Positions 23,447-39,196 of a stretch of DNA of 64,000 nucleotides are shown here, one piece after another; the first letter of the stretch is position 1; each line of letters begins with the position of its first letter. Location: the NCBI RefSeq assembly GCF_000214705.1, contig NC_015573.1, positions 3,107,001-3,171,000 of the forward strand, given 5' to 3'. A program made the translations under genes and the position numbers. This DNA is from Desulfofundulus kuznetsovii DSM 6115 (GTDB lineage: Bacteria > Bacillota > Desulfotomaculia > Desulfotomaculales > Desulfovirgulaceae). The notes beneath the pieces are model-generated. The model searched no databases. It was given only the letters and a program-made list of their open reading frames with translations, and was not told the origin of the DNA.

Positions 23447-24310
23447 TTATGCCCCCAGCAATAAAGGCCGGGGATCTACGTAATGCTGTTCCAGTCCCAG
23501 GCTTTCCCGGGGGAGTTCCAGGGCCACCCCCAGAAGCTGGGTGAAATACAGGACGGGGATCTGGCGAAAGCCGGCGTCTTGTTCCAGGATTTTTCCCTGC
23601 AGCCAGTCCAGGTTGAACTGGCACAGGGGGCAACTGGTGATGATTGCTTCCGCCCCTTTGGCAGCGGCGGAGTTGAGAATGTCCCGTACCCTTTGCCTCA
23701 CCAGGTCATTTTCGTGCAGCACCTGGTAGGAGCCACAGCAGGTGGTTTTATGGGGGTATTCCACCACTTCCGCGCCAAGGGCGGCGACCAGCTCTTCCAT
23801 GACGGTGGGGTTCTCCGGATCATCAAAACCCATCTCCAGAGCGGGCCGCACAAGCATGCAGCCGTAATAACAGGCCACTTTTAGGCCTTTCAGGTTGCGG
23901 CTCGTTTTGGCCTGTATAGCGTTAAACCCCACGTCTTCTTTGCAAATTTCCAGTGGATGGACCACCTGTATTTCCCCGGTATAATTTTCTTCCAGGTAAT
24001 CATTGAGCTTTTGCCTGGCCTCCGGATTATGCTGCATTTCATAATTTACCCGTTTTAGAACGTTATAGCAGAAGGAGCAGACCGTAAGCAGCCTGTCTTC
24101 TCCTTCTCCGGCGACACCGGCCAGAATACGCGCCGCTGCCACCATGCCCATGTAATTATCCCGGGCCAGGGGAAACACCGTTCCGCAGCAGGTCCACCGG
24201 GACAGCTCCGCCAGCTCCACCCCCAGGGCGGCCAGGGAGGCCCGGGTGGAATTATCCAGACCTCTTGCTTTATTGTATAGCGTACATCCCGGAAAGTATG
24301 GTATTTTCAT
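23447..24310 (-). CDS. hdrB: HdrB-like CCG-domain protein, copy 2
   Basis: This 287-residue copy is almost identical to 6382-7260: the same two CCG domains (TCCGTVFP/CSFCYNV and TTCCGSYQV/CPLCQFN), one clear residue change (AELSRW instead of AELPRW), and a stop directly after LLLGA. It lies below hdrC copy 2 and aconitase in the upstream module. The natural stop here suggests that this copy is closer to the original end and copy 1 was extended at the duplication junction. Role as for copy 1: terminal electron carrier for a fumarate-reductase-like complex. Confidence 0.85.
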   Translation of the reverse strand: MKIPYFPGCTLYNKARGLDNSTRASLAALGVELAELSRWTCCGTVFPLARDNYMGMVAAARILAGVAGEGEDRLLTVCSFCYNVLKRVNYEMQHNPEARQKLNDYLEENYTGEIQVVHPLEICKEDVGFNAIQAKTSRNLKGLKVACYYGCMLVRPALEMGFDDPENPTVMEELVAALGAEVVEYPHKTTCCGSYQVLHENDLVRQRVRDILNSAAAKGAEAIITSCPLCQFNLDWLQGKILEQDAGFRQIPVLYFTQLLGVALELPRESLGLEQHYVDPRPLLLGA

Positions 24311-24749
24311 CCCTATGCCCCCCTTTTCAAGCGCTCAGCTTGCGAAAACCGCTGGTCAGGGCCATCTGGGGAACCCGGGTGAGCAATTCCACCGGTATTT
24401 TCTCTGCAACCAGCACTTCCCCGCCCGAACGCAGGTTGATTACCCGCAGGGCTTCCATTAACCGGGCCAGATCTATACCCCGCGGGCAGCGGGCGGTACA
24501 GAGCAAACAGGTGCTGCAGACCCAGATGGAGCGGCAGTGCAGGGCCCGGGCGTCACCCAGCTGGAGCAGGCGCATGACCTGCCGGGGCAACAGTTCCATG
24601 ACCTCCCTGCCCGTACATCCCGCACTGCAGGTGCCGCACTGCATGCATAAATACGGGTCCTGCCCGCTGATTTCCTTAATACGCTCAATAATCTCCCGGC
24701 TCATTTTGTTTGATAGTTCCACAGCCATTGGCATCGGGCTCCTTTAATT
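23451..24749. repeat. 1.3-kb near-identical duplication, copy 2 (hdrCB)
   Basis: Partner of 6401-7699, same orientation, about 99% identical. It includes both genes and the hdrC ribosome-binding site but none of the flanking operon. Confidence 0.92.
24327..24734 (-). CDS. hdrC: HdrC-like ferredoxin subunit, copy 2
   Basis: The 135-residue translation is identical to copy 1 at 7277-7684, with the same CMQCGTCSAGC and CSTCLLCTARCP motifs; only silent changes were noticed. It starts after AAAGGAG. Upstream is aconitase and, further up, the intact FrdA/B pair, so each FrdAB-like pair in the array has its own HdrCB. Confidence 0.85.
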   Translation of the reverse strand: MPMAVELSNKMSREIIERIKEISGQDPYLCMQCGTCSAGCTGREVMELLPRQVMRLLQLGDARALHCRSIWVCSTCLLCTARCPRGIDLARLMEALRVINLRSGGEVLVAEKIPVELLTRVPQMALTSGFRKLSA

Positions 24750-24812
24750 ATTTCCGGATACCGTACTGTCCTTATTTCATGCCAAGTATTGATGCTCCCT
24801 GTTACGCATGTT

Positions 24813-26735
24813 CTAGCCCCTGCGCGTATGATTAAGCAAACCTCCCGCCAGGATGATCTCCACCTGTCGGGGCGTTAGCTGCGCCCGGACTTTAAAGGTT
24901 ATGTTGCGGGTGACGTTTTTAACTTCCAGTTCCGCTCCTTCTTGCAGGGCCCGGTGTAGCTGATCGATCTGCAGCACGTCGTCCTGCTCCAACCTGTCGT
25001 AATCTGCAGGCTCAATGAAGGTGAGGGGCAGAATGCCAAAGTTGATCAGGTTGTCCCGGTGAATGCGGGCAAAGGATTTGGCCAGCACGGCTTTCACACC
25101 CAGGTACATGGGAACAAGCGCGGCGTGCTCCCGGCTGGAGCCCTGGCCGTAATTTTCCCCGCCCACGATAATCCCGCCTCCGGCCTCCCTGGCTCTGCGG
25201 GGGAAAGAAGGATCCACGGCGGCAAAAACATACTCGGCCATGGCCGGGATATTGGAACGCAGGGGCAATACCCTGGCCCCGGCCGGCATAATGTGGTCCG
25301 TAGTGATGTTGTCGCCTACCTTAAGGAGCACCCGGCCCTCTATGCTCCGGGGTAGAGGTTCAGCCACCGGCAGGGGCTTTATGTTTGGACCGCGCACGAT
25401 TTCCACGTTATCCGGGTTATCAGCAGGGGGTATGATCATGCGGTCATCCACATGGAATCTTTCAGGCAGCGCAATTACCGGAGGGTCGCCCAGTTCCCTC
25501 GGGTCGGTCAGCCTGCCCGTGAGGGCAGTTGCTGCCGCAGTCTCCGGGCTTGCCAGGTACACCCGGGCATCGGCCGTACCGCTGCGCCCCTTGAAGTTCC
25601 GGTTGATGGTCCGCACCGAAACCCCGCCGGAAGGGGGGGCCTGCCCCATGCCAATGCACGGCCCGCAGGCGCACTCCAGGATCCGGGCACCGGCGGCCAC
25701 CAGATCCGCCAGGGCACCGTTTTGTGCCAGCATGGTGAGAACCTGCCGGGAGCCGGGGGCGATAACGAGACTCACCCGGGGATGCACCACTTTCCCCTTG
25801 AGAATGGCCGCAACCTTCATCAGGTCCAGGTAAGAAGAGTTGGTACAGCTGCCGATGACCACCTGGTCCACGGCCAGCGGCCCCACCTCGCGCACGGGCT
25901 TTACATTGTCGGGACTGTGGGGGCAGGCCACCAGGGGCTCCAGGGTGCTTAAATCAATATCCAGCACTTCATCATACGCAGCATCCGGGTCCGGCCCCAG
26001 TTCCACCCAGACCTCTTCCCGGCCCTGGGCCCGTAAAAAGGCCCTGGTTACTTCATCACTGGGGAAGATGGAAGTGGTGGCTCCCGTCTCCGCCCCCATG
26101 TTGGTGATGGTAGCCCGCTCAGGCACGGTCAGGGATTTAACCCCTTCCCCGCCGTACTCCAGGATCTTGCCCACCCCACCCTTAACGGTAAGGCGGCGTA
26201 AAACCTCCAGAATCACGTCCTTGGCCGTGGCCCACGGCGCCAGCCGGCCGTGCAGCCGGATGTTGACCACCCCGGGCATAATCATATGGAAAGGACCTCC
26301 CCCCATGGCCACCGCCACGTCCAGGCCGCCCACCCCAATGGCCAGCATGCCCAGGCCCCCGGCCGTAGGGGTATGGCTGTCCGATCCCAGCAGGGTTTTG
26401 CCGGGTACGCCGAACCTTTCCAGGTGAACCTGGTGGCAGATGCCGTTACCCGCCCTGGAGAAATAAGCCCCGTATTTAGCTGCCGTACTTTGTAAGAACC
26501 GGTGGTCGTCGGCATTTTCAAAGCCGGTCTGCAGGGTGTTGTGATCCACGTAAGATACGGAAAGCTCCGTTTTTACCCGGGGAATGCCCATAGCTTCAAA
26601 CTGCAGGTAAGCCATGGTACCGGTAGCATCCTGGGTAAGGGTTTGATCTATCCTGATGGCGATCTCCCGACCCGGTTGCATGGTACCGGAAACCAGGTGA
26701 TTGAGCAGGATCTTCTGGGTGAGATTATAGCCCAT
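24813..26735 (-). CDS. acnA: Aconitate hydratase
   Basis: This 640-residue 4Fe-4S enzyme isomerises citrate and isocitrate through cis-aconitate; methyl homologues are possible. Cluster and substrate motifs are GSDSHTPTAGGLGMLAIGVG near residue 110, VIGSCTNSSYLDLM near 300 and CACGPCIGMGQAPPSGGVS near 365. The C-terminal swivel domain carries GENYGQGSSREHAALVP. This is the compact bacterial aconitase rather than LeuCD. ATG 26735 follows GAGGTGG. It sits between the FrdA-like flavoprotein and hdrCB and two genes from isocitrate dehydrogenase. Confidence 0.93.
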   Translation of the reverse strand: MGYNLTQKILLNHLVSGTMQPGREIAIRIDQTLTQDATGTMAYLQFEAMGIPRVKTELSVSYVDHNTLQTGFENADDHRFLQSTAAKYGAYFSRAGNGICHQVHLERFGVPGKTLLGSDSHTPTAGGLGMLAIGVGGLDVAVAMGGGPFHMIMPGVVNIRLHGRLAPWATAKDVILEVLRRLTVKGGVGKILEYGGEGVKSLTVPERATITNMGAETGATTSIFPSDEVTRAFLRAQGREEVWVELGPDPDAAYDEVLDIDLSTLEPLVACPHSPDNVKPVREVGPLAVDQVVIGSCTNSSYLDLMKVAAILKGKVVHPRVSLVIAPGSRQVLTMLAQNGALADLVAAGARILECACGPCIGMGQAPPSGGVSVRTINRNFKGRSGTADARVYLASPETAAATALTGRLTDPRELGDPPVIALPERFHVDDRMIIPPADNPDNVEIVRGPNIKPLPVAEPLPRSIEGRVLLKVGDNITTDHIMPAGARVLPLRSNIPAMAEYVFAAVDPSFPRRAREAGGGIIVGGENYGQGSSREHAALVPMYLGVKAVLAKSFARIHRDNLINFGILPLTFIEPADYDRLEQDDVLQIDQLHRALQEGAELEVKNVTRNITFKVRAQLTPRQVEIILAGGLLNHTRRG

Positions 26736-26785
26736 AAATACCACCTCTTCTATTGGAGTAACAGAACCAGGCCGCTTCCAGCGAA

Positions 26786-26804
26786 GGGTAAATGTTTATT
26801 ACCC
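26786..26804. promoter_or_regulatory. Inverted repeat upstream of aconitase
   Basis: GGGTAA and TTACCC arms surround a 7-nt centre in the 87-bp gap between the FrdA-like gene and acnA. The neighbouring AATTGGGTAAT resembles the sequence around the gntR operator. Possible regulator site; weak evidence. Confidence 0.35.
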
Positions 26805-26822
26805 AATTATATCATTAATAAC

Positions 26823-28448
26823 TTAACTATAGCGACGCTCTTTGACTTCGGGACGGGTATAATCGGGAAGCAACAGCGGTGAGACGCGCCCCTTTTCAAT
26901 GCCTTCGGCAGCCAGTTCCCGATGATAACGGCGCACGTGTTCCAGCGTAAGCTTTCCAGGTGAAGGACCCTCCCTGGCAAAAAGCGCCGCTGCCTGTCCG
27001 GCCCGCCGGCCAAAGACAAAAATGTCCACCAGGGAGTTCCCGCCCAGGCGGTTCCTGCCCTGCACCCCTCCCGCCACCTCGCCGGCCGCAAAAAGGCCGG
27101 GTATATCTGTTCTCCCTTCCGGATCGATCTCGATGCCACCATTCTGGTAATGCTGAGTTGGAAAGACAAGGATGGGCTCTTTGTGGACGTCGATACCATA
27201 TTCGCGAAACCGGTGCACTATGCCGGCAAACATCCGGTCCAGTTTTCCTTCTCCACCGCGGATATCAATTAGAGGTGTATCCAGCCACACCCCCTCCATG
27301 CCCGTAGGTGTGCGTACCCCATTTTTCCTGTCCCGCACTTCCCGGATGATCGCCGAAGAGGTTACGTCGCGGGTTTCCAGTTCGTTGATAAACCTTTCCC
27401 CGTGTACGTTCACCAGCTGGGCACCGTTGCCCCGCAGGGCCTCGGTGATCAGCTGGCCCAACATCTGCTCCGGCCAGGCGGCACCGGTAGGGTGGTACTG
27501 AATGGCGTCCATGTGCAAAAGGCGGGCTCCGGCCCGGTAAGCAATCACCAGCCCGTCGGCAGTGGCACCGTAGTGGTTCGTGGTAGGGAATTTATTGGGG
27601 TGCAGGCGGCCAATGCCGCCGGTAGCCAGGATAACCGCTTTAGCCCGGACAATGATGTGCTCGCGGGTCTCCAGGTTCATCAAAATGGCCCCCGCACAGC
27701 GGCCTCTTTCGTCCAGCAAAAGTTCCACCGCGGGACTGAATTCCAGCACCTCCACCCTTCTGTTCCACAGCTCATCGCGAATGACCCGCATAAATTCCAT
27801 ACCGCTTAAGTCCTTGCAGGAGTGCACCCGGCGGCGGCAGTGCCCCCCGGCAAAGGATACCACCAGATCCCCGTTCGGGTGGGTATCAAACATGGCCCCC
27901 AGGTCCTTCAGCCATTCCACGATCAGGGGCGCATCGTGTACCAGCGCCCAGACCAGCTCCCGCTTATTCTGGAACCTTCCTCCGCCAATGGTATCCAGAA
28001 AATGCAAATAGGGAGAGTCATTGGGCTGGGTGGCGGCGGCAATACCTCCTTCCGCCATCATGGTATTGGCATCGCCCAACCTCAGCTTGGTGGTCAGGAG
28101 CACCCGCGCTCCATTTTCGTGGGCAATGAGGGCGGCAGTTGCTCCCCCGCCACCCCCGCCCACCACCAGGACATCCACATCGTAATCTATACGGCTGAGG
28201 TCCACACGATCCGGGTCAATACGGCTGTAGGCCTCCAGGAGATCCACCAGTTCATTTTGCATGCGCTGGCCTTTATTGGGACCCACCCTTACCGGCCGCA
28301 TCCCATCCGGACGGAAGTCGGGGTGGCATTGCTCGAGCAGGCGGGTTTTCTCTTCCGGCGTCAGGCGCGGAATTTCCTGCTGGAGGCGAAAGGCACGGGT
28401 AGCTTCCAGTTTGCGAATTGATTCCTGCATTTCTATGGGATAGCCCAC
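26823..28448 (-). CDS. FrdA/TfrA-like flavoprotein, intact paralogue
   Basis: This 541-residue FAD protein is the full-length equivalent of the broken gene at 10761-12391. It has the FAD site DVDVLVVGGGGGGATAALIA near residue 80, GGHCRRRVHSCKDLSG, FPTTNHYGATADGL, DAIQYHPTGAAWPEQM, PTQHYQNGGIEID and NRLGGNSLVDIFVFGRRAG. GTG 28448 follows GGGAGGAG by 7 nt; the longer frame overlaps the upstream gene without a site. Members oxidise succinate or reduce fumarate; given PrpF, aconitase and Idh alongside, oxidation of a tricarballylate-like acid is an alternative. Confidence 0.87.
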   Translation of the reverse strand: MGYPIEMQESIRKLEATRAFRLQQEIPRLTPEEKTRLLEQCHPDFRPDGMRPVRVGPNKGQRMQNELVDLLEAYSRIDPDRVDLSRIDYDVDVLVVGGGGGGATAALIAHENGARVLLTTKLRLGDANTMMAEGGIAAATQPNDSPYLHFLDTIGGGRFQNKRELVWALVHDAPLIVEWLKDLGAMFDTHPNGDLVVSFAGGHCRRRVHSCKDLSGMEFMRVIRDELWNRRVEVLEFSPAVELLLDERGRCAGAILMNLETREHIIVRAKAVILATGGIGRLHPNKFPTTNHYGATADGLVIAYRAGARLLHMDAIQYHPTGAAWPEQMLGQLITEALRGNGAQLVNVHGERFINELETRDVTSSAIIREVRDRKNGVRTPTGMEGVWLDTPLIDIRGGEGKLDRMFAGIVHRFREYGIDVHKEPILVFPTQHYQNGGIEIDPEGRTDIPGLFAAGEVAGGVQGRNRLGGNSLVDIFVFGRRAGQAAALFAREGPSPGKLTLEHVRRYHRELAAEGIEKGRVSPLLLPDYTRPEVKERRYS

Positions 28449-28467
28449 CTGAAATCTCCTCCCCGCA

Positions 28468-29148
28468 TTATAGCTTTTCAAATTCCCGTTTTAAATAGAG
28501 CTTCTTCAACTCTTCTTCACTGGCAGCGGCAATCCCGGCCAGAGCCTGATCGTGCAGGCCCGCCCGGATTTCAGCCACACGGTCCTTCAGGTGTTGGGGT
28601 TTGGGCCTCATATGTTTGCTGTAGTAACGGCGGACAAAGATGGCAATGTTGTACGGCACCAGCTGGGCCGGACAGCGGGCGGCACAGAGGCCGCACATAA
28701 TGCAATCAAAGGACAGTTCCGCCGCCCGGGCAAAATCCCCCCGCAGCGCCGCCGCCACGTAATACATGGGCTGTAATTTCTGCGGACAAACGCTGGTGCA
28801 GGTGTTGCACCCCAGGCAGCGGGCGGCTTCGGGGTAAAGCTGCAGTAGAGTTTCTAAAGGTGAACCCACTTTATCCAGGTCATAAATGGCTTTATTGACC
28901 GGGAAGTAGGGCAATTGCATGAGGGTCATATGGGGTGTAACCGGCGTCTGGCAGGCCAAACCGACCTGTATCCGGAAGTTGCCGGGCACCCGGTATACCG
29001 TGGCACAGGCGCCGCAGAAACCGCCCCGGCAGCCACAGCCGCGGATAAGCTGGTAACCCGCCCATTCCAGGGCCTTCATAATAGTAAGCCCTTCTGGTAC
29101 CTCGTAGCGCTTCCCCATGATGTAAATTGGAATTAACGACTCTCCCAC
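28468..29148 (-). CDS. FrdB/TfrB-like iron-sulfur subunit, copy 2
   Basis: This 226-residue protein has a 2Fe-2S motif (CGCRGGFCGAC), two 4Fe-4S motifs (CLGCNTCTSVCP and CIMCGLCAARCP) and the same length as copy 1 at 12413-13093, though clearly diverged. GTG 29148 follows AAGGAGG. It precedes its flavoprotein partner by 20 nt. No cytochrome b or other anchor gene accompanies it, which again points to HdrCB as the exit for electrons. Confidence 0.86.
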   Translation of the reverse strand: MGESLIPIYIMGKRYEVPEGLTIMKALEWAGYQLIRGCGCRGGFCGACATVYRVPGNFRIQVGLACQTPVTPHMTLMQLPYFPVNKAIYDLDKVGSPLETLLQLYPEAARCLGCNTCTSVCPQKLQPMYYVAAALRGDFARAAELSFDCIMCGLCAARCPAQLVPYNIAIFVRRYYSKHMRPKPQHLKDRVAEIRAGLHDQALAGIAAASEEELKKLYLKREFEKL

Positions 29149-29162
29149 AGGGGACTACCTCC

Positions 29163-30164
29163 TTACCCGCTCATTTTGTCTACAATGGCCCCGGCCATTT
29201 CGGAGGTGCTGGCGCTGCCTCCCAGGTCGTAGGTCACCACACGTCCTTCGCTGATGACTTCGGCCAGCGCCTGCTCCACCCTGGCCGCCGCTTCCTTTTC
29301 ACCCAGGTACTTCAGCATCATAACGGCGGAAAGAATCATGGCCGAGGGGTTTACCCTGTTCTGCCCGGCGTATTTGGGGGCACTGCCGTGAACGGGTTCA
29401 AAGATGGCTATATCGGTGCCGATATTAGCCCCCGGGGCCATCCCCAGACCGCCCACCAGACCGGCGCAGAGATCCGATATGATGTCCCCGTAGAGGTTGG
29501 GCATCACCAGCACATCGTACAGCTCCGGTTTTTGCACCAGCTGCATGCACATGTTGTCCACAATGCGGTCCTCAAACTCAATTTGGGGGTAATTTTCGGC
29601 CACTTTCCGGGCCACGGCCAGAAACAGGCCGTCGGTGCACTTCATGATGTTGGCTTTATGGACCACAGTCACTTTTTTGCGTCCTTCCCGCACGGCATAT
29701 TCAAAGGCAAAGCGGACGATCCGTTCCGCCCCCCGGCGGGTGATAATCTTGATGCTTTCGGCCGCATCTTCGCCCACCATGTGTTCGATACCGGCATACA
29801 GGTCCTCGGTATTTTCCCGGACGACCACCAGATCCACATTATCGTAGCGCGACTTGACGCCCTGGTATGTACGGGCAGGACGGAGATTGGCGAACAAATC
29901 AAACTCCTTGCGCAGGGCCACATTAACACTGCGGAAACCGGTGCCTACGGGAGTGGTCAGGGGGCCCTTCAGGGCCACCTTGTTTTTTCTGATGGAGGCC
30001 AGGGTATCCTCCGGTAAAAGCTCCCCGTACTCCCTCAGGGCAGTTTCTCCGGCCAGTTTTTCCTCCCACTGAATATCCACCCCGGTAGCGGCCAGGACCG
30101 TCTTGGTAGCCGCCGTGATATCGGGACCAATGCCGTCTCCGGGAATCAGGGTGATGCGGTACAT
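29163..30164 (-). CDS. icd: Isocitrate dehydrogenase (isocitrate/isopropylmalate family)
   Basis: This 333-residue beta-decarboxylating dehydrogenase has [16 protein letters not shown] at the start, the substrate loop [20 protein letters not shown] with the S-x-N-x3-R pattern of isocitrate enzymes, and [17 protein letters not shown] for the metal. The [17 protein letters not shown] segment has the Lys-Tyr pair that recognises NADP in the E. coli enzyme, so NADP use is plausible despite the NAD-IDH-like size. It follows prpF by 30 nt and makes 2-oxoglutarate for the KorDABC system upstream. Confidence 0.85.
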
Positions 30165-30195: not shown

Positions 30196-31362
30196 TTAAA
30201 CTTCCGGCCAGAAAATCCGGCGCGGCACATAAACAAAACCATCCATGATGCGGCGGGCCGTCCGGGCCACCGCAGCTTTTTCCAACCGCGGATTGCCGCC
30301 GGCATCGCGGGTAATTTCGATTTCAAATTCCAAAGTGCCCGAAGGATGTCCCAACCTGACCACTTTGCCCCGCCGGGCAGATGGACCCAGGACCTCGCTG
30401 ACCACCGTCCCCTCCAGCTTGGCTGCCGTCGACGTGCAGATCCCACCCGTTACGGCGAAGGCCTTGTGCATCTTCTGCATGGACATGGTCCGTGCCACCA
30501 GGTCAATCTGGCCGGCTTCGATGACCCGGCCGTCGCTGGTTCTGTATGCACAGGGCGGGGAGACAAAAACGATCTTGGGTACCGCCGGGCTTTTCGCCGT
30601 GGCCTCCAGCCGGTGCGCCAGCCCCATCATTTCGGCGGCAATGCTCCGGATCTCTTCAATGCGGGCCAGTAACTGCGGGTTGCTGTTGATCGCATCCGGC
30701 AGTTCCACGCCGGTCAGCCCCAGGTCCGCGGCCTTAAAAAAGACCGCCGGGTTGGCGGCATCCACCAGGGACACCGTCAGCCTGGTCCCGTCGGAGAGGG
30801 TTATTTCATCCTTTAAATTGCCGGTCGGGAGTAATTTACCGGTAACCGCCCCTCCGGAATCCAGGAAGTTCAAAGTGATGCGGGCGCCGGTACCCGGCAC
30901 GCCGTCGATGGCCAGGTCACCCTCGGTGACCGCCCTTCCATCCTTAACGGGAACTTCCGCCGCAATGATTTTCCCGGTATTGGTGTTAAAGATGCGCACC
31001 GTGGTTACGGGCTCCACTGCTTTGACCAGGCCCTCGTCGATGGCAAAAGGACCTACGGCGGAAGAAATATTGCCGCAGTTGCCCTTATAATCCACCAGGG
31101 GGGCTGTAATGCTGACCTGCCCGAAGGTGTAATCCACATCGGCGTCGGGCCTGCTGGAACGCCCGATAATGGCCACCTTGCTGGTTAAAGAGTCCGCCCC
31201 GCCCAGGCCGTTAATTTGCCTGGGATCGGGACTGCCGAAGATGGCCAGGATCACCCGGTCCCGTGTTTCAGGATCCCGGGGCAGGTCGTTTTCCAGCAGG
31301 AAAACCCCTTTGCTGGTTCCTCCCCGGATGATGGCGCAGCGTATTTTTTCATACTCCCGCAC
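30196..31362 (-). CDS. prpF: PrpF-family isomerase (aconitate/methylaconitate isomerase-like)
   Basis: This 388-residue protein of the diaminopimelate-epimerase fold begins IRCAIIRGGTSKGVFLLEND and contains DYKGNCGNISSAVGPFAIDE with the catalytic Cys near residue 115. PrpF isomerises trans- or cis-2-methylaconitate and relatives; GalD and aconitate isomerase belong to the same family. GTG 31362 follows AAGGAGG. It is the first gene after leader RNA B and is followed by icd, frdBA-like genes and acn, which suggests that trans-aconitate or methylaconitate enters the pathway here. Confidence 0.85.
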   Translation of the reverse strand: MREYEKIRCAIIRGGTSKGVFLLENDLPRDPETRDRVILAIFGSPDPRQINGLGGADSLTSKVAIIGRSSRPDADVDYTFGQVSITAPLVDYKGNCGNISSAVGPFAIDEGLVKAVEPVTTVRIFNTNTGKIIAAEVPVKDGRAVTEGDLAIDGVPGTGARITLNFLDSGGAVTGKLLPTGNLKDEITLSDGTRLTVSLVDAANPAVFFKAADLGLTGVELPDAINSNPQLLARIEEIRSIAAEMMGLAHRLEATAKSPAVPKIVFVSPPCAYRTSDGRVIEAGQIDLVARTMSMQKMHKAFAVTGGICTSTAAKLEGTVVSEVLGPSARRGKVVRLGHPSGTLEFEIEITRDAGGNPRLEKAAVARTARRIMDGFVYVPRRIFWPEV

Positions 31363-31405
31363 GTCTAATCAACCTCCTTTTCTCATCCCGTCGGATAAAA
31401 TGGGG

Positions 31406-31552
31406 GTAAAAAACATAAAGGCAACCAGCATGTAACCGCAAGTTACAACTGGTTGCCTTATCCACTCTTACCGCCCGGTCTAACCCGCACGGTGGTGAAT
31501 AACCGCAGTTGCACCGAAGTTCCCGGCTATAAAGCTCATCAAAGGGAACTCC
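31406..31552 (-). ncRNA. Leader RNA B with terminator, upstream of prpF
   Basis: Reading the minus strand: a first hairpin (GAGTTCCC with GGGAACT), then P1 CAACTG (31511-31506) with CAGTTG (31451-31446), P2 TTATTCAC (31502-31495) with GTGGATAA (31465-31458), and an inner GC-rich P3. The 3' halves of P1 and P2 also form the left arm of a terminator stem AAGGCAACCAG / CTGGTTGCCTT ending in TTTATGTTTTTT. The folds are mutually exclusive, as in riboswitches and attenuators. It matches leader A in design, with changed but still paired stems. The ligand is unknown. Confidence 0.7.
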
Positions 31553-31606
31553 TCGGAAGATCGCTTTTGGAATTGTACACAAAATACATGGATTCCATCT
31601 TTAATT

Positions 31607-32884
31607 TTAGCGCATTAGCGAGGGCAGGTAAAGGGAAATTTTCGGGAATAAAACCAGGCATATAAGGGTAAGGATCATAACGGCTATAAATGGCAATACA
31701 CCCTTGACGACTTCTTCCAGACGCTCCCGGGCAATACCGCCTACCACGAACAGGTTCAACCCTACCGGAGGCGTGATCATGGCCAGTTCCATACTTACCA
31801 CCATAGCTACGGCAAAATGGATCATACTGATATCCAGGTGTTTAATTATCGGTATCAAAATGGGGAGGGTAATAAGTACGATAGAAACTGCTTCCAGGAA
31901 AGTACCCATAACAAAAAACATTACCAGAACAGCCACCCAGAACATACCCACCCCCAAATTGCTATTGGCGATCCATTGAGCAATTTTAGCGGGAATCTGT
32001 TCACTGGTTAAATACATGGCAAACGTCATGGCTGCAGGAATAATCAAGAAGATCATCGAAGTAATGCCAATGGCTTCCCTGAGGATGGAGCGAAATTTGT
32101 TCCAGGTCATTTCACGATAAATAAAGATGGTCACAAAAAGGGCGTAAAAGACGGATACAATTGAAGCTTCTGTCGGTGTACAGACCCCGCCGTAAATGCT
32201 GCCCAGAATGATCACAGGTAGCAAAAACCCGGGAACGGCTTTCCAGGTACATTGCCACCTGGTTTTCCAGTCGGCCTTGGGCTCACCGCCGTAATTTTTC
32301 AGGCGTGCATAAATGATAGATGTTATCAGGAGTACGCCGCCCAGTAAAATGCCTGGTAACACACCAGCCATAAACAGTTTACCGATGGACTCATTAGCCG
32401 TTACCCCGATGAGCACAAAGGTAATGCTGGGCGGGATCAAAATACCCAGGGTGCCGGAAGCAGCCACCAGCCCCATGGCGTAACGCTTCTCATACCCGGC
32501 CTCTACCATGGCCGGTATAAGAATGCCTCCGATGGCGGCAGCGGTGGCTGGGCTGGAACCCGAAATGGCGGCAAAGATCATGCAGGCCAGGATGGTTACT
32601 ACCGAAAGCCCTCCCCGCAGGTGACCGACCCAGGCCCGCAAGGCGGCAATCAGGTACCGGGAAATCCCCCCGTGGGCCATAACGGCACCGGCCAGGACAA
32701 AACCGGGAATAGCCATAAGCGGGGGAGACTCCAGGGCGGAAAACATCTTCTGGGCCACCATGTACAGGTTGAAGTCCGTAGTTAAGGCTAAAACCAGGAC
32801 ACTGGAAATGGCCAGGCTCAGGGCAATGGGTACATGCAAAAGGAACAAAATGATGAAAATACTAAAGAGTAGGGCTGCCTCCAT
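31607..32884 (-). CDS. dctM: TRAP transporter large permease DctM
   Basis: This 425-residue membrane protein has about 12 hydrophobic helices. The family loop AAISGSSPATAAAIGGILIP is near residue 110, with LVAASGTLGILIPPSITFVL and ELAMITPPVGLNLFVVGGIA near the C-terminus. It forms the translocation channel with DctQ. Its start overlaps dctQ by 23 nt, so the two are coupled. Leader RNA B lies between its stop and prpF. Confidence 0.94.
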   Translation of the reverse strand: MEAALLFSIFIILFLLHVPIALSLAISSVLVLALTTDFNLYMVAQKMFSALESPPLMAIPGFVLAGAVMAHGGISRYLIAALRAWVGHLRGGLSVVTILACMIFAAISGSSPATAAAIGGILIPAMVEAGYEKRYAMGLVAASGTLGILIPPSITFVLIGVTANESIGKLFMAGVLPGILLGGVLLITSIIYARLKNYGGEPKADWKTRWQCTWKAVPGFLLPVIILGSIYGGVCTPTEASIVSVFYALFVTIFIYREMTWNKFRSILREAIGITSMIFLIIPAAMTFAMYLTSEQIPAKIAQWIANSNLGVGMFWVAVLVMFFVMGTFLEAVSIVLITLPILIPIIKHLDISMIHFAVAMVVSMELAMITPPVGLNLFVVGGIARERLEEVVKGVLPFIAVMILTLICLVLFPKISLYLPSLMR

Positions 32885-33419
32885 GATGCGACATTACTCC
32901 TTTCTGTCCATCCTCGGTTTTCCCGCACCCCGCCACCAGCCTGTCCTTTCCCCCATTTTTTAAAAGGTGGTACAACTCTTCAATATACCGGATGCAAAGC
33001 ATAAAAGACGCAATGGGAACAAAAAAGTACACCGCCCACAAGGGAAACTGCGTATTTAAGGACCGCTGTCCTGTATGCAGATACTTGGTTTCCAAAACGT
33101 ATCCCACGTAAGTCAGGAACAGGCAGAACAAAATGCTGGCAATACTGGCAAAGATACTCACATAGTGTTGTACTTTTCGCGGCATATAATTGTATAAAAG
33201 ACTAACCCGGATGTGACGCCCGTCCCGCTGGGCGATGCTCCAGCCCAGAATACACCCCCAGACGAGTATATAAGTAGAGATCTCGTCCACCCAAAACAGG
33301 GGGTTTTTAAACACATAGCGGCTGATTACCCCGTAAAAGATCAGGGTTACTCCCGCAAAGAAAAAGATACCGGCAATGGCCTCCTCGAAGACGGAATAAA
33401 TACGCTGGAGACGGCTCAT
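32862..33419 (-). CDS. dctQ: TRAP transporter small permease DctQ
   Basis: The 185-residue protein has four predicted helices and the DctQ pattern YGVISRYVFKNPLFWVDEIS and WSIAQRDGRHIRV. It is the small integral subunit pairing with DctM. It follows the solute receptor gene by 99 nt. The C-terminal 30 residues after GGKDRLVAG are polar and extend past the usual end. Confidence 0.93.
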   Translation of the reverse strand: MSRLQRIYSVFEEAIAGIFFFAGVTLIFYGVISRYVFKNPLFWVDEISTYILVWGCILGWSIAQRDGRHIRVSLLYNYMPRKVQHYVSIFASIASILFCLFLTYVGYVLETKYLHTGQRSLNTQFPLWAVYFFVPIASFMLCIRYIEELYHLLKNGGKDRLVAGCGKTEDGQKGVMSHHGGSPTL

Positions 33420-33518
33420 ATTTTCCCCCCTTCACCCGTCAAAACCGGGGGAACCCGGGTGCACCGTTTATGGTACACCCGAAACCTCCCGCACTAAACC
33501 CTTCTCAGGGCTGAAAAT

Positions 33519-34541
33519 TTATTGATTCAACTTTTTCGCTTCCTCAAAGAGCTCCTTACCAATGACAGGTTCGTACTTGGCCCATACCGGCTGCATGGCC
33601 TCCACGAAAGCCTGGCGTTCTTCCGGAGTTAACTCGTGCACCTTGATTTTCTGCTTCAATTTAGCCAGGCTTTCCTGGTCCAGCTGATCGGCCAATTGCC
33701 GCTCATATTCAGTCGCTTCCTTCAGGCACTGTTCAACAGTTTCCCGAATATCCGGTGGGAGGCTATCCCAAAATTGTTTGTTTACAATCACGATATAGGA
33801 AAGATTGTTGACATTAGCTACAGTAAGATAATTCAGGACTTCGGCATATTTTTCGTTTTCGATGTTGTCAAAGGTAGCAATAGTTCCATCGACAACTTTT
33901 TGTTGAAGGGCGGTATAAACTTCACTAAACGGAATGTTGGCGGTTCCCGCACCCAGTGCCTGGAAAATATCGACCAATACACCGCCGGCGGGAATCCGGA
34001 ACTTCAGACCTTTAAAATCTTCAGGTGTTTTTAATTCCTTTTTGCTGTTCATGAACTGCCGCATGCCGTTGGGCCAGGCGGTAAGGCCGATCATGCCCTG
34101 GCTTTCCAGACTTCGCAACAACTTCTTACCTGCTTCACTATCCCAAAATCTGGCCGCCCCCTGGTTATCTTTAAACAGGAAAGGCATGTCCCCAATCTGG
34201 AATCGCTGGTCGAAACTGATTAACTTACCGGCGGATGGGGCGATAAACTGGACGTTATTGGCTTGAAGGGCTTCAAACTCATCTTTATCGCCATACAACT
34301 GGGAGGACGGAAATACCTGAATTTCTACCCGCCCGTTGGTACGCTCCTTTACCAGGTCCGCAAACTTTTGCGCAGCAAGACCCTTAGGTGTGCCCGGAGC
34401 AGTAACGTGACTGAACTTAGCCACTATTTTTTCAGTAGACTGGTTTTGAGCCGCTTCTTTTTTGCCGCCACAACCTGCCAGTAAAAGTGTGAACAAGGTC
34501 AACAAAGCTAACAGGGAAAGCAAGTAGTTCCGCTTTCTCAT
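33519..34541 (-). CDS. dctP: TRAP solute receptor DctP (lipoprotein)
   Basis: This 340-residue extracytoplasmic binding protein has a lipobox (LLLAGCGGKK, Cys near 24) and the DctP features: AKFSHVTAPGTPKGLAAQKF, NGRVEIQVFPSSQLYGDKDE, and GLKFRIPAGGVLVDIFQALG with the carboxylate-binding Arg. AGGAGGAGG precedes ATG 34541. It is the first gene of the TRAP operon, behind leader RNA A. The ligand is a carboxylate; the operon suggests a tricarboxylate or unsaturated acid. Confidence 0.93.
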   Translation of the reverse strand: MRKRNYLLSLLALLTLFTLLLAGCGGKKEAAQNQSTEKIVAKFSHVTAPGTPKGLAAQKFADLVKERTNGRVEIQVFPSSQLYGDKDEFEALQANNVQFIAPSAGKLISFDQRFQIGDMPFLFKDNQGAARFWDSEAGKKLLRSLESQGMIGLTAWPNGMRQFMNSKKELKTPEDFKGLKFRIPAGGVLVDIFQALGAGTANIPFSEVYTALQQKVVDGTIATFDNIENEKYAEVLNYLTVANVNNLSYIVIVNKQFWDSLPPDIRETVEQCLKEATEYERQLADQLDQESLAKLKQKIKVHELTPEERQAFVEAMQPVWAKYEPVIGKELFEEAKKLNQ

Positions 34542-34649
34542 TTGCGATACCTCCTCCTAAATTATCAAACTTTTTTCTTTATATTTCTTTTTCCCAAAAA
34601 TCACCTCCTGTGCGAACATAAGTATAAGTCAAAACCTAAACAAAAATCC

Positions 34650-34750
34650 GAAAATAAAAAATAGGTAACCATTGACGCCCGGCGTACAACTGGCTACCTA
34701 TCTACTCGCACCGCCCGATCGCTCGGGCGATTGTAGATATTACAGTTGAC
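34650..34750 (-). ncRNA. Leader RNA A with terminator, upstream of dctP
   Basis: Reading the minus strand: P1 CAACTG (34748-34743) with CAGTTG (34692-34687), P2 TATCTAC (34739-34733) with GTAGATA (34705-34699), and P3 CGCCCGA-GCGA-TCGGGCG. The 3' halves of P1/P2 also make a terminator stem ATAGGTAGCCA / TGGTTACCTAT followed by TTTTTTATTTT. The architecture and the loop sequence CGGGCGGT..GAGT are shared with leader B, while P2 and terminator stems covary. I do not recognise the class. About 100 nt separate it from dctP; a GGAGGTGA with a 10-codon TTG frame lies between. Confidence 0.72.
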
Positions 34751-34800
34751 GGACCTTATTAAAGACACTTTTTTCGCTTTAAAGCGTATTTATTTTTTCG

Positions 34801-35133
34801 CTACCTGGCCTTTTGACTTGCTTGCCCGGAACCGCTCAGGTAAGTCCGGTACAAGTCCTTAAGAGCGGCGATCAGCGCATTCTGCGCCGCCCCGTGATAA
34901 TATTCTTTAATTTCCTGAATTGGCCCTTCTATGCCATCTAAAAGGCTGTGGCCCACCAAAATTGATCTAATATACTCCTGAGCCAGCGGAGTAACCAGTG
35001 TGCAGGATGCCTGGACAATAACGCCGTACTTGCGATCAATTTCCGCAACAATGGCCAGGGTACCATATATACCCTTGGCCGCCATGCCCTGGGGAAGACT
35101 GGCATGGCCGGCCACAAACACCGTCTTTTTCAC
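34801..35133 (-). CDS. DUF3870-like protein
   Basis: This 110-residue protein starts KKTVFVAGHASLPQGMAAKG and contains GVIVQASCTLVTPLAQEYI and a C-terminal helical part with GAAQNALIAALKDLYR. It fits the small DUF3870 family often linked to organic-acid catabolism genes in Firmicutes; its function is unknown. GTG 35133 follows GGAGG by 7 nt. It lies just upstream of leader A and downstream of the MFS gene. A 12-bp palindrome CGCTTTAAAGCG (34775-34786) lies just past its stop. Confidence 0.65.
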   Translation of the reverse strand: MKKTVFVAGHASLPQGMAAKGIYGTLAIVAEIDRKYGVIVQASCTLVTPLAQEYIRSILVGHSLLDGIEGPIQEIKEYYHGAAQNALIAALKDLYRTYLSGSGQASQKAR

Positions 35134-35225
35134 CTTCAAGCCTCCATACCATCCCCGCTGCAAGCATTGAAGTCCCTGTTGCAAATTTTTTGAAAACCTG
35201 TTGATAGTGTATTCGACATAAATAT

Positions 35226-36654: not shown

Positions 36655-37221
36655 TTAAGCCGGAACCTTTACCGAAGAGGCCTTCGCCATTTCAAACCCT
36701 GCTTCCAGGGCCTGCATATTCAAGGTTTCGGTACCTTTGGGGATGCGGGAAAGCAACGCCTGCTCCAGGGCCTGACGGGAGACAGCACCGGTCAGTCCGG
36801 CCAGTATCCCCAGCGCCACTATATTGGCCACCAGTTCCTTGCCCACCTTTTCCCGGGCCAGGCGGCTGATGGGAAAAACGTACACCCGCCCCGGGGTGGC
36901 CGGTATATTTTTTACGTAGGTGCTGTCAACAATTAAAAGGCCTCCCTTTTTTACACGAGCGGCATATTTATTGGCTGCTTCCTGGCTCATGGCCAGCACC
37001 ACATCCGGGCAGGTAACCTTCGGGTAATCAATTTCCCCGTCGCTTACCACCACCTCAGCCTTGCTGGCGCCACCCCGGGCTTCCGGCCCGTAGGACTGGG
37101 CCTGCACGGCGTTTTTGCCCTCCCGGATGGCCGCATCGGCTAAAATAACGCCCGCCAGGATCAGGCCCTGGCCACCCGAACCGCTCAACCTGAATTCTAT
37201 CGTTCCGGACATTTTACTCAT
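36655..37221 (-). CDS. korC: 2-oxoglutarate:ferredoxin oxidoreductase gamma subunit
   Basis: This 188-residue subunit reads IEFRLSGSGGQGLILAGVIL, QSYGPEARGGASKAEVVVSD and ALGILAGLTGAVSRQALE, the standard gamma (KorC/PorG) pattern. It follows korB by 9 nt. With KorA, KorB and KorD it makes the four-subunit enzyme that interconverts 2-oxoglutarate and succinyl-CoA with ferredoxin. Confidence 0.92.
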   Translation of the reverse strand: MSKMSGTIEFRLSGSGGQGLILAGVILADAAIREGKNAVQAQSYGPEARGGASKAEVVVSDGEIDYPKVTCPDVVLAMSQEAANKYAARVKKGGLLIVDSTYVKNIPATPGRVYVFPISRLAREKVGKELVANIVALGILAGLTGAVSRQALEQALLSRIPKGTETLNMQALEAGFEMAKASSVKVPA

Positions 37222-37230
37222 CTCCTTTGC

Positions 37231-38052
37231 TCACTGGTTTTTGCCCTTTGCCCTGGCCATGATTTCTTCGTACATGGCGGTGTATTCGGGAGCTTCCCCC
37301 CTGTACAACTCACCAATCACTATTTTATCCTGCAACTCCTCCGGGCTCATTTTTTCCGCCTGTTTCACCGTTACAGCATGTTCCTTCTGCCAGAGAAGCA
37401 TTTGCAGGCCGTTGCCCATTTTGTTGCGCCGCCCGTACCCCACCGGGCAGGCGGTAATGGCCTCAATGACGCTGAAGCCCTTGTTTTTGGCTCCGGCTAT
37501 AATCAATTTTTCCAGCATGGTGGCATGATAGGTGGTAGCCCGGGCCACATAGGTGGCGCCGGCACCTTTAGCCAGTTCGGCAATATCAAAGTTTCGCTCT
37601 ACATTCCCGTAGGGGGCGGTAGTCGCCCTTTTGCCGGGAGGAGTGAGGGGCGAATATTGCCCCCCGGTCATACCATAGATGCTGTTGTTGAAAATGATGG
37701 CCGTGAGGTCTATATTGCGCCTGGCAGCGTGTATAAAGTGATTGCCGCCGATGGCCGTGGCGTCGCCGTCTCCCATCAGGACAAAGACATCCAGTTCAGG
37801 CCTGGCCAGTTTGATACCGGTGGCAAAGGCCAGCGCCCGCCCGTGGGTGGTGTGCAGGGTGTTGAAATCCAGGTAACCCGCCGCCCGGGAAGAACAGCCG
37901 ATGCCGGAAACCACCACGGTTTTGTCCGGGTCGTACCCCAGTTTCTCAATGGCCCTGACCAACGCCGATAAAACTATGCCGTTGCCGCAACCGGGACACC
38001 AGATATGGGGAAACCGGTCAGACCGCAGGTGGGATTCAACCTGACTGAGCAT
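37231..38052 (-). CDS. korB: 2-oxoglutarate:ferredoxin oxidoreductase beta subunit
   Basis: This 273-residue TPP-binding subunit has HIWCPGCGNGIVLSALVRAI near residue 16, GIGCSSRAAGYLDFNTLHTTHG (Cys ligand of a 4Fe-4S cluster) and the TPP motif GDGDATAIGGNHFIHAARRN. The substrate-side SIYGMTGGQYSPLTPPGKR is typical of 2-oxoacid oxidoreductases of the 2-oxoglutarate clade. The start overlaps korA by 17 nt and has AAGGAGG upstream. Confidence 0.93.
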   Translation of the reverse strand: MLSQVESHLRSDRFPHIWCPGCGNGIVLSALVRAIEKLGYDPDKTVVVSGIGCSSRAAGYLDFNTLHTTHGRALAFATGIKLARPELDVFVLMGDGDATAIGGNHFIHAARRNIDLTAIIFNNSIYGMTGGQYSPLTPPGKRATTAPYGNVERNFDIAELAKGAGATYVARATTYHATMLEKLIIAGAKNKGFSVIEAITACPVGYGRRNKMGNGLQMLLWQKEHAVTVKQAEKMSPEELQDKIVIGELYRGEAPEYTAMYEEIMARAKGKNQ

Positions 38053-39196
38053 CCGTTGTCACCTCCTTGATGGCGGACAGGATTTCGTCAAAGGTGATCA
38101 GTTCCCCGTTCAACCGGTTAACCCCCGTCACCCTTACCCGGCCCTGCACTGCCCGCTCCACTTCTCCCTTGAGCTGGCCCAGGTTCATCTCGGCCACGAT
38201 GATGTGCCGCACCCGGCCGGCCAGTTCCGCCACCTCTTTTTCCGGGAAGGGCCAGATGGTTACCGGCCGGAACAGCCCCGCTTTGATACCCGTTTCCCGG
38301 GCATCCTTGACCGCCCGTTTAGCCGATCTGGCCACCGCACCATAGGCGACCACAACTACTTCCGCATCCTCCAGCTGATAGCCCTCTGCGGTAACTACAT
38401 CATCCAGATGGTCGTAAATTTTCTGGTGCAGCCTCAGAATTAAGCTTTCAGCAATCTGAGGGTCGGTGGTGGGATTGCCTTTTTCATCGTGCACCAGCCC
38501 CGTTACGTGGTAACGGTAACCATCTCCGAAGTTGGCCATGGGCGGTACACCGTCATCGCCGGGGCGGTAGGGGTAATAATCTTTTGGCTCCACCGCCGGC
38601 TTTTTACGCTCAATTACCTCCACTTCCCCGGCCCGGGGCAGAATCACCCGTTCCCGCATGTGACCGATCACTTCGTCCATGAGCAGGATCACCGGCACCC
38701 GGTACTTTTCCGATAGGTTGACCGCCCGGATGGCCAGCATGTATGCCTCCCGCACCGAGGCAGGACAGAGGACGATGACCGGGTGATCGCCGTGGGTTCC
38801 CCACCTGGCCTGCATCACATCCCCCTGGGCCGGAGCGGTGGGAATACCCGTACTGGGTCCCCAGCGCTGCACATTGACAATCACGCAGGGAATTTCAGCC
38901 ATAGCCGCATAGCCGATGTTCTCCTGCTTCAGCGAAAAGCCCGGCCCGCTGGTGGCCGTAAGGGCCTTCACCCCGGCCAGGGAAGCACCGATTACCGCGG
39001 CCATACTGGCAATCTCGTCTTCCATCTGGATGAACTTACCGCCCAACCCGGGCAGGCGTTCGGCCATCAATTCGGCAATCTCCGTGGAGGGGGTGATGGG
39101 GTAACCGGCAAAAAAGCGTACTCCGGCCGCCAGGGCTCCTTCCACCACCGCCTCGTTGCCCTGCATCAGACGGGCCATTTCCACCACATCGCTCAT
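38036..39196 (-). CDS. korA: 2-oxoglutarate:ferredoxin oxidoreductase alpha subunit
   Basis: This 386-residue subunit carries the pyrimidine/transketolase-like domains: GNEAVVEGALAAGVRFFAGYPITPSTEIAEL, TATSGPGFSLKQENIGYAAM and PTAPAQGDVMQARWGTHGDH. The length and the PITPSTE and PTAPAQGD motifs match KorA rather than pyruvate enzymes. It overlaps korD by 4 nt (ATGA). It uses 2-oxoglutarate from isocitrate dehydrogenase, or runs in reverse if the pathway is reductive. Confidence 0.93.
   Translation of the reverse strand: MSDVVEMARLMQGNEAVVEGALAAGVRFFAGYPITPSTEIAELMAERLPGLGGKFIQMEDEIASMAAVIGASLAGVKALTATSGPGFSLKQENIGYAAMAEIPCVIVNVQRWGPSTGIPTAPAQGDVMQARWGTHGDHPVIVLCPASVREAYMLAIRAVNLSEKYRVPVILLMDEVIGHMRERVILPRAGEVEVIERKKPAVEPKDYYPYRPGDDGVPPMANFGDGYRYHVTGLVHDEKGNPTTDPQIAESLILRLHQKIYDHLDDVVTAEGYQLEDAEVVVVAYGAVARSAKRAVKDARETGIKAGLFRPVTIWPFPEKEVAELAGRVRHIIVAEMNLGQLKGEVERAVQGRVRVTGVNRLNGELITFDEILSAIKEVTTDAQSG

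Follow-up and report, generated by a model that had tools for sequence, protein, structure and literature searches.

Two terminator-coupled leader RNAs of Desulfofundulus kuznetsovii and their association with DUF3870 genes

The window analyzed here is a 64,000-nucleotide stretch of the Desulfofundulus kuznetsovii DSM 6115 genome (contig NC_015573.1, positions 3,107,001 to 3,171,000). On its minus strand it carries a catabolic gene cluster with two leader RNAs, leader A in front of dctP and leader B in front of prpF (Table 1). A preliminary description of the sequence had drawn both leaders as one fold, and both were found where it had placed them. They are members of a large and so far undescribed group of RNA elements, proposed to turn transcription on or off, that are located beside genes of the DUF3870 family (PF12986). 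The genome has two leaders and a single DUF3870 gene, which lies immediately upstream of leader A. By eye, the true start of this gene is probably TTG 35139 or GTG 35133. The idh product resembles isocitrate dehydrogenase, and the gene order from idh to the hdrB-like gene is also found at two other loci (L078 and L079). A gene set resembling a 2-oxoacid:ferredoxin oxidoreductase was recognized by reading farther upstream (36655-39196). We take the cluster to serve uptake and oxidation of a tricarboxylate, for example trans-aconitate or tricarballylate, which agrees with the earlier placement of both copies in one catabolic unit.

Table 1. Positions of the leader RNAs and surrounding genes in the window.
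Feature	Position	Strand	Remarks
Leader A core: antiterminator hairpin P1-P2-P3	34685-34748	minus	upstream of dctP; from fold, covariance models and covariation
Leader A intrinsic terminator and U-tract	34651-34703	minus	5' arm includes the end of P2' and P1'
Leader B core: antiterminator hairpin P1-P2-P3	31444-31511	minus	upstream of prpF; from fold, covariance models and covariation
Leader B intrinsic terminator and U-tract	31408-31459	minus	5' arm includes P1'
Hairpin P0	31514-31556	minus	immediately 5' of leader B; GTTCCC/GGGAAC type; from folds, and sequences by eye
DUF3870 (PF12986) gene	34801-35184	minus	directly upstream of leader A; 101.7 bits (Pfam gathering cut-off 22)
dctP, TRAP solute-binding protein	33519-34541	minus	first gene behind leader A
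dctQ	32862-33419	minus	
dctM	31607-32884	minus	
prpF-family isomerase	30196-31362	minus	first gene behind leader B
idh, iron-sulfur protein, flavin adenine dinucleotide flavoprotein, aconitase, hdrC-like, hdrB-like	23447-30164	minus	hdrC assigned by reading

Both leaders contain three helices, P1, P2 and P3, separated by two asymmetric internal loops. In copy A, P1 pairs CAACTG (34748-34743) with CAGTTG (34692-34687), P2 pairs TATCTAC (34739-34733) with GTAGATA (34705-34699) and P3 pairs ATCGCCCGA (34731-34723) with TCGGGCGGT (34718-34710), all on the minus strand; the terminator hairpin occupies 34703-34659 and is followed by a U-tract. Copy B has the same P1 (31511-31506 and 31451-31446), a P2 of TTATTCAC and GTGGATAA, a P3 of ACCGTGCGG and CCGGGCGGT, and a terminator at 31459-31418, again followed by a U-tract. 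P2 is 7-8 bp and P3 about 9 bp long, with one mismatch in P3 of copy B. The 3' strand of the P1-P2-P3 hairpin doubles as the 5' arm of the U-tailed terminator in both leaders. The P0 hairpin also folds at the prpF copies of other species and is weak or absent at dctP copies.

Compared with 200 dinucleotide shuffles, the fold energies of the full leaders gave z scores of -4.5 (A) and -5.3 (B), and those of the terminators -3.9 (A) and -5.2 (B). In folds of the growing transcript, P1-P2-P3 was present at 64-76 nt in A and 68-74 nt in B, and from about 80 nt on the P1' strand was captured by the terminator. In A the hairpin had -27.7 kcal/mol at 64-70 nt and the terminator fold about -40; in B the corresponding values were -27.3 and about -45 kcal/mol. 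The shared strand, the shuffle scores and the growing-transcript folds support the mutually exclusive hairpin and terminator proposed earlier. With the terminator more stable than the hairpin, the operon would be off by default.

The leaders had been reported as a class not recognized, and this held: Rfam gave no match in the whole window at the gathering score, and the four matches of a permissive search of 31380-34820 (best E 0.24) all lay off the leaders. No description of the leader RNA was found in the titles and abstract openings of the open-access papers considered, or in passages of PMC2965389.

A covariance model built from the two window copies only (R1) was searched against 113 genomes of the order. 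Nine matched at E <= 0.1, and eight of these, with 14 sites, were convincing, which argues that the fold is more than chance. Two families are represented, and six of the eight genomes hold a leader pair about 3.2-3.4 kb apart. The ninth genome (G025, locus L013, 22.7 bits) was excluded because P2 is absent. In a 398-genome sample of the phylum, the model R2 matched five genomes at E <= 0.01, four of them convincing (G000, G062, G186 and G191). G186 and G191 were added by R2, and in G191 two leader copies lie between DUF3870 and prpF. The R2 match in G392 (L021, 1500-1562) sits before groES and was excluded as a false positive; its inverted repeat resembles a CIRCE element. A further leader scan matched nine stretches, of which L023, L025 and L031, from distant phyla, were taken as chance. 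By reading, leader A persists in two other members of the genus (L008 and L009) though the operon behind it is mostly deleted, and at L009 the DUF3870 gene is also gone (no match at the locus).

The covariance models detected 17 copies, 15 of them distinct, from ten genomes. In this alignment 96.0% of the pair cells are standard and nine of the 22 pairs have changed on both sides. The covariation score was 0.394, compared with 0.248 for shuffled and 0.06-0.10 for slid alignments, in an alignment that was fitted to the structure and leans towards it. Four of five measures beat all 500 shuffles, and the number of pair types was reached by 10 of them.

DUF3870 is present in 55 of the 398 phylum-sample genomes (68 matches), mostly beside other kinds of genes. 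All four convincing R2 genomes carry it, and G061, a member of the window's genus, has neither leader nor DUF3870. Searched over 61 DUF3870 loci, R2 matched only in L062 and L063 (L063:2560, at 14.5 bits, was dropped), indicating that these models fall short of the full range of the family. Association was measured with a sequence-free descriptor consisting of P1 (4-6 bp), a longer 3' bulge, P2 (5-10 bp), a longer 3' inner loop, P3, and P1' within the terminator arm. It was applied to every predicted terminator of 65 loci, which hold 70 DUF3870 genes from 57 genomes; the G062 gene (L043) was left out of this set and window-group genes of G017, G066 and G068 were added. Scores of at least 35 were obtained for 42 of the 108 terminators located no more than 330 nt from DUF3870 and for 39 of the 1271 unique ones more than 1 kb away; scores of at least 40 were obtained for 33 and 13 of them, respectively. 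The corresponding odds ratios are 20 and 43, with relatedness ignored, and some members of the distant set, leader B among them, are true second copies. The near matches come from 36 of the 65 loci, under 20 family labels.

Two features of these leaders accompany the enrichment. Directly before P1', at the last position of the 3' bulge and outside the descriptor, a C stands in 37 of 41 near leaders (score >= 35) compared with 27 of 105 distant matches (score >= 28). Their inner loop is also richer in A (48% versus 30%). The odds ratio of about 20, the C and the covariation speak against ordinary terminators that pair upstream by chance, a reading to which we assign next to no weight even though 3% of distant terminators also pass the threshold.

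Thirty-four of the 41 near leaders follow a DUF3870 gene and ten precede one, three of these doing both; DUF3870 thus looks like the reader of the element rather than its target. At L078 the DUF3870 gene lies at the distal end of the cluster and is encoded on the opposite strand, which would require action in trans. Leader similarity follows DUF3870 similarity (Mantel r 0.62, reached in none of 2000 permutations, 38 gene-leader pairs), as expected of a matched pair, though shared ancestry contributes. In these counts the near-identical leaders L069, L099, L102 and L105 were taken separately and the P-values ignore relatedness. In G301, a distant relative of the window DUF3870 (L100) has a leader closest in RNA to those of L079 and the window, and a second DUF3870 gene (L089) has a different, short leader form.

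Many DUF3870 genes are adjoined by leaders of the same architecture and different sequence, for example GCCA-TTTTGTTTGC-P3-GCAAGCAAGA-cc-TGGC overlapping AGACCTGGC...GCCAGGTTTTT. First genes outside the window were assigned by reading rather than by profile search. Among their products are coenzyme A (CoA)-transferase, methylmalonyl-CoA mutase, carboxyltransferase, malic enzyme, TRAP and tricarboxylate transporters, symporters, MmgE/PrpD and dehydrogenases; the genes behind the leaders thus vary and mostly concern organic-acid metabolism and transport.

Six leaders of another group served to build a third covariance model (R3). Across 654 kb of DUF3870 loci it recovered its six training sites and 13 more same-strand sites at E <= 2; of these 13, all except one (L066) lie within 330 nt of DUF3870 on its strand, places that make up 3.7% of the strand space. 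R3 matches five of the 398 phylum-sample genomes. Seven sites, including the six training sites, are beside DUF3870 in G270, G294 and G488, and three (L138, L139 and L140, at about 1501-1566) precede genes for flavoproteins like SdhA or fumarate reductase; in G294 and G488 these sites lie 14-19 kb from DUF3870, and in G270 the site is on a different contig. Single sites in G315 and G393 (E about 0.02) were excluded, as were opposite-strand mirror rows (four in the phylum sample, seven in the DUF3870 loci). Sites away from DUF3870 indicate that there can be several leaders to a single DUF3870, which is also the case in the window. In genomes having these third leaders the DUF3870 operon starts with a CoA-transferase-like gene, which suggests that the two form one propionate or methylmalonyl-CoA regulon.

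Tandem DUF3870 genes occur in L114, L104, L103 and L066, with leaders between or beside them in the first three and two near-identical ones in L114. In L083, L084, L087 and L089, a DUF3870 gene of another subfamily is followed by a shorter leader without P3, of the type GCTG-c-TTTGTCAAC...GTTGATGAA-atc-CAGC (by eye). A descriptor for short hairpins that lack P3 showed weak enrichment near DUF3870 (score >= 22 in 13 of 108 near and 47 of 1290 distant terminators), and the long descriptor alone was therefore used.

The preliminary description went on to imply a riboswitch that senses the imported acid or a pathway intermediate directly. In such a scheme the hairpin itself would bind a carboxylic acid or CoA ester, and DUF3870 would be merely co-regulated or accessory. 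The terminator/antiterminator architecture, the organic-acid operons and the presence of two copies within one cluster all fit this. However, the leaders are plain stacked hairpins with variable P3 tips and few conserved unpaired bases, their sequence comes in many versions, and in most cases the DUF3870 gene precedes the terminator and is not part of the unit under control. They also match no Rfam family in the window or in the 18 of 65 DUF3870 loci scanned, which sets them apart from Rfam riboswitches and T-boxes, likewise terminator-coupled 5' leaders. The riboswitch reading is probably wrong, and we consider it unlikely, although it is the best placed of the alternatives. What stands of the earlier interpretation is a shared, unrecognized class exclusive with a terminator, present twice in one cluster and with homologues that show covariation; a metabolite, if sensed, is more likely sensed by a protein than by the RNA. 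Few conserved unpaired bases, and many sequence versions sharing a DUF3870 neighbor outside the controlled unit, argue for an antiterminator read by a protein.

The window DUF3870 protein matches only PF12986 in the profile search. Its AlphaFold model, computed from a five-sequence alignment, has a mean predicted local distance difference test score of 71, and the nearest solved folds are IscU-like with weak scores (Foldseek E 0.049 for 1q48; VIA: 2l4x, Z 8.6, root-mean-square deviation 3.2 over 97 residues), with parts of unrelated oxidoreductases scoring nearly equally (3hrd, Z 8.4). IscU/SufU proteins are thus among the nearest folds to the model. Unlike IscU/NifU_N, which has three, DUF3870 shows no conserved cysteine ligand among the invariant or nearly invariant columns of a 30-member alignment, and hhalign against IscU was not significant (probability 1.8%). 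Kinship to IscU is accordingly weak, and an IscU-like fold, as modeled, would say nothing on RNA binding. Membership of a known RNA-binding family found no support in Pfam or NCBIfam either. No sequence relative of the DUF3870 profile was detected in the PDB below E 0.5. This is contrary to PMC4387736 (2015), which assigns PF12986 to a domain of a Bacteroides protein of known structure (3kog); the accession may span unrelated proteins or have changed. In the parts of the open-access literature covered, 'DUF3870' and 'PF12986' appear in that paper only.

A further alternative is an attenuator read by some other trans-acting factor, such as an RNA-binding protein, a small RNA or pausing with NusA/NusG, with DUF3870 as a linked metabolic or scaffold protein. 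The resemblance to IscU-like folds, the diverse neighbors of DUF3870 and the lack of a recognized RNA-binding domain would suit such a role. DUF3870 is, however, the neighbor seen in common among differing operons, and the leader sequence tracks its subfamily, as in the two loci of G301. We regard this reading as doubtful, slightly more so than the riboswitch. Attenuation by a translated leader peptide is very improbable. By eye, copy B does contain a 19-codon frame (31539-31480) with a GGAG-preceded ATG that runs through P0 to the P3 loop, but in L010, L018 and L019 this prpF-side frame lacks a start or is interrupted by a stop (by eye).

The closest known parallel is the ribonucleic antiterminator (RAT) of LicT and its relatives BglG and SacY, a leader hairpin with two asymmetric internal loops that overlaps a terminator in catabolic operons (PMC3369936 and PMC7430163). 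The elements described here share these features. They differ in that the linked protein is the unrelated DUF3870, with no CAT or PRD family listed among 30 relatives, and in serving organic acids rather than sugars. The RAT is about 30 nt long, compared with about 56-68 nt for the present hairpins, and the LicT and SacT genes adjoin their targets, as observed for DUF3870. In ANTAR leaders, two hairpins have matching loops. HutP, GlpP and ANTAR proteins are likewise ligand-responsive and govern terminators of catabolic operons (PMC3369936 and PMC7430163), as is proposed for DUF3870. According to the same papers, HutP binds NAG repeats, and the leader bound by ANTAR proteins has two loops, named P1 and P2, unlike the one stacked hairpin and other protein family here.

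From the observed fold, its covariation, the terminator overlap and the DUF3870 association, we infer that DUF3870 is an acid-responsive, RNA-binding antiterminator that targets the hairpin much as LicT targets its RAT. This reading is more likely than not, with the binding, the ligand, the switching and the on-when-bound direction all part of what is proposed. The two asymmetric loops around a short stem, as in the LicT target, together with DUF3870 as the common partner, make DUF3870 the proposed loop binder. The leader would act as a RAT whose three stacked helices are separated by two asymmetric internal loops and which shares sequence with an intrinsic terminator that prevails by default. 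In the presence of the acid or its CoA ester, DUF3870 would bind the hairpin around the two loops and hold P1-P2, blocking the terminator so that dctPQM and the genes from prpF and idh to hdrB are transcribed. The single DUF3870 gene would serve both window leaders, and the same protein-RNA pairing would recur across the phylum with other organic-acid operons.

Several observations weigh against this proposal. No known RNA-binding domain was recognized in DUF3870 by Pfam or NCBIfam or among the structural neighbors of its model, and the protein is not notably basic by eye. Twenty-nine of the 65 DUF3870 loci have no long-descriptor match, although some carry shorter or divergent forms by eye (in others none was found), and most other leader groups are out of reach of R2 and R3. 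The near leaders include close relatives, and common descent makes both the enrichment and the Mantel result look stronger than they are; r drops to 0.22 among protein pairs below 0.45 similarity. At L009 (G063), where the search for DUF3870 covered the locus, the leader is kept without a DUF3870 gene beside it; with that gene gone and the operon largely deleted, the leader there appears to be a scar. Against the reality of the leaders themselves stands a simple consensus scan that listed neither leader terminator, probably because it permits loops of at most 8 nt; its promoter-like sites were at chance level (six found, 4.9 expected) and thus gave no evidence of a promoter directly 5' of either leader.

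To our knowledge, few families of antitermination proteins are known. In the broadest form of the proposal, DUF3870 proteins would be a new and widespread family of metabolite-responsive RNA-binding antiterminators with an IscU-like fold that co-evolve with their own RAT-like hairpins and form a major layer of control over the metabolism of organic acids and of propionate/methylmalonyl-CoA in anaerobic bacteria of the Firmicutes type; we consider the case for and against it evenly balanced. The leaders are short and self-contained, so that a single protein, RNA and reporter would suffice to test antitermination by DUF3870. If DUF3870 is such a family, a role would be assigned to a domain of unknown function, a regulator with a predicted inducer to dozens of carboxylic-acid operons, and a testable RNA switch to propionate/methylmalonyl-CoA metabolism.

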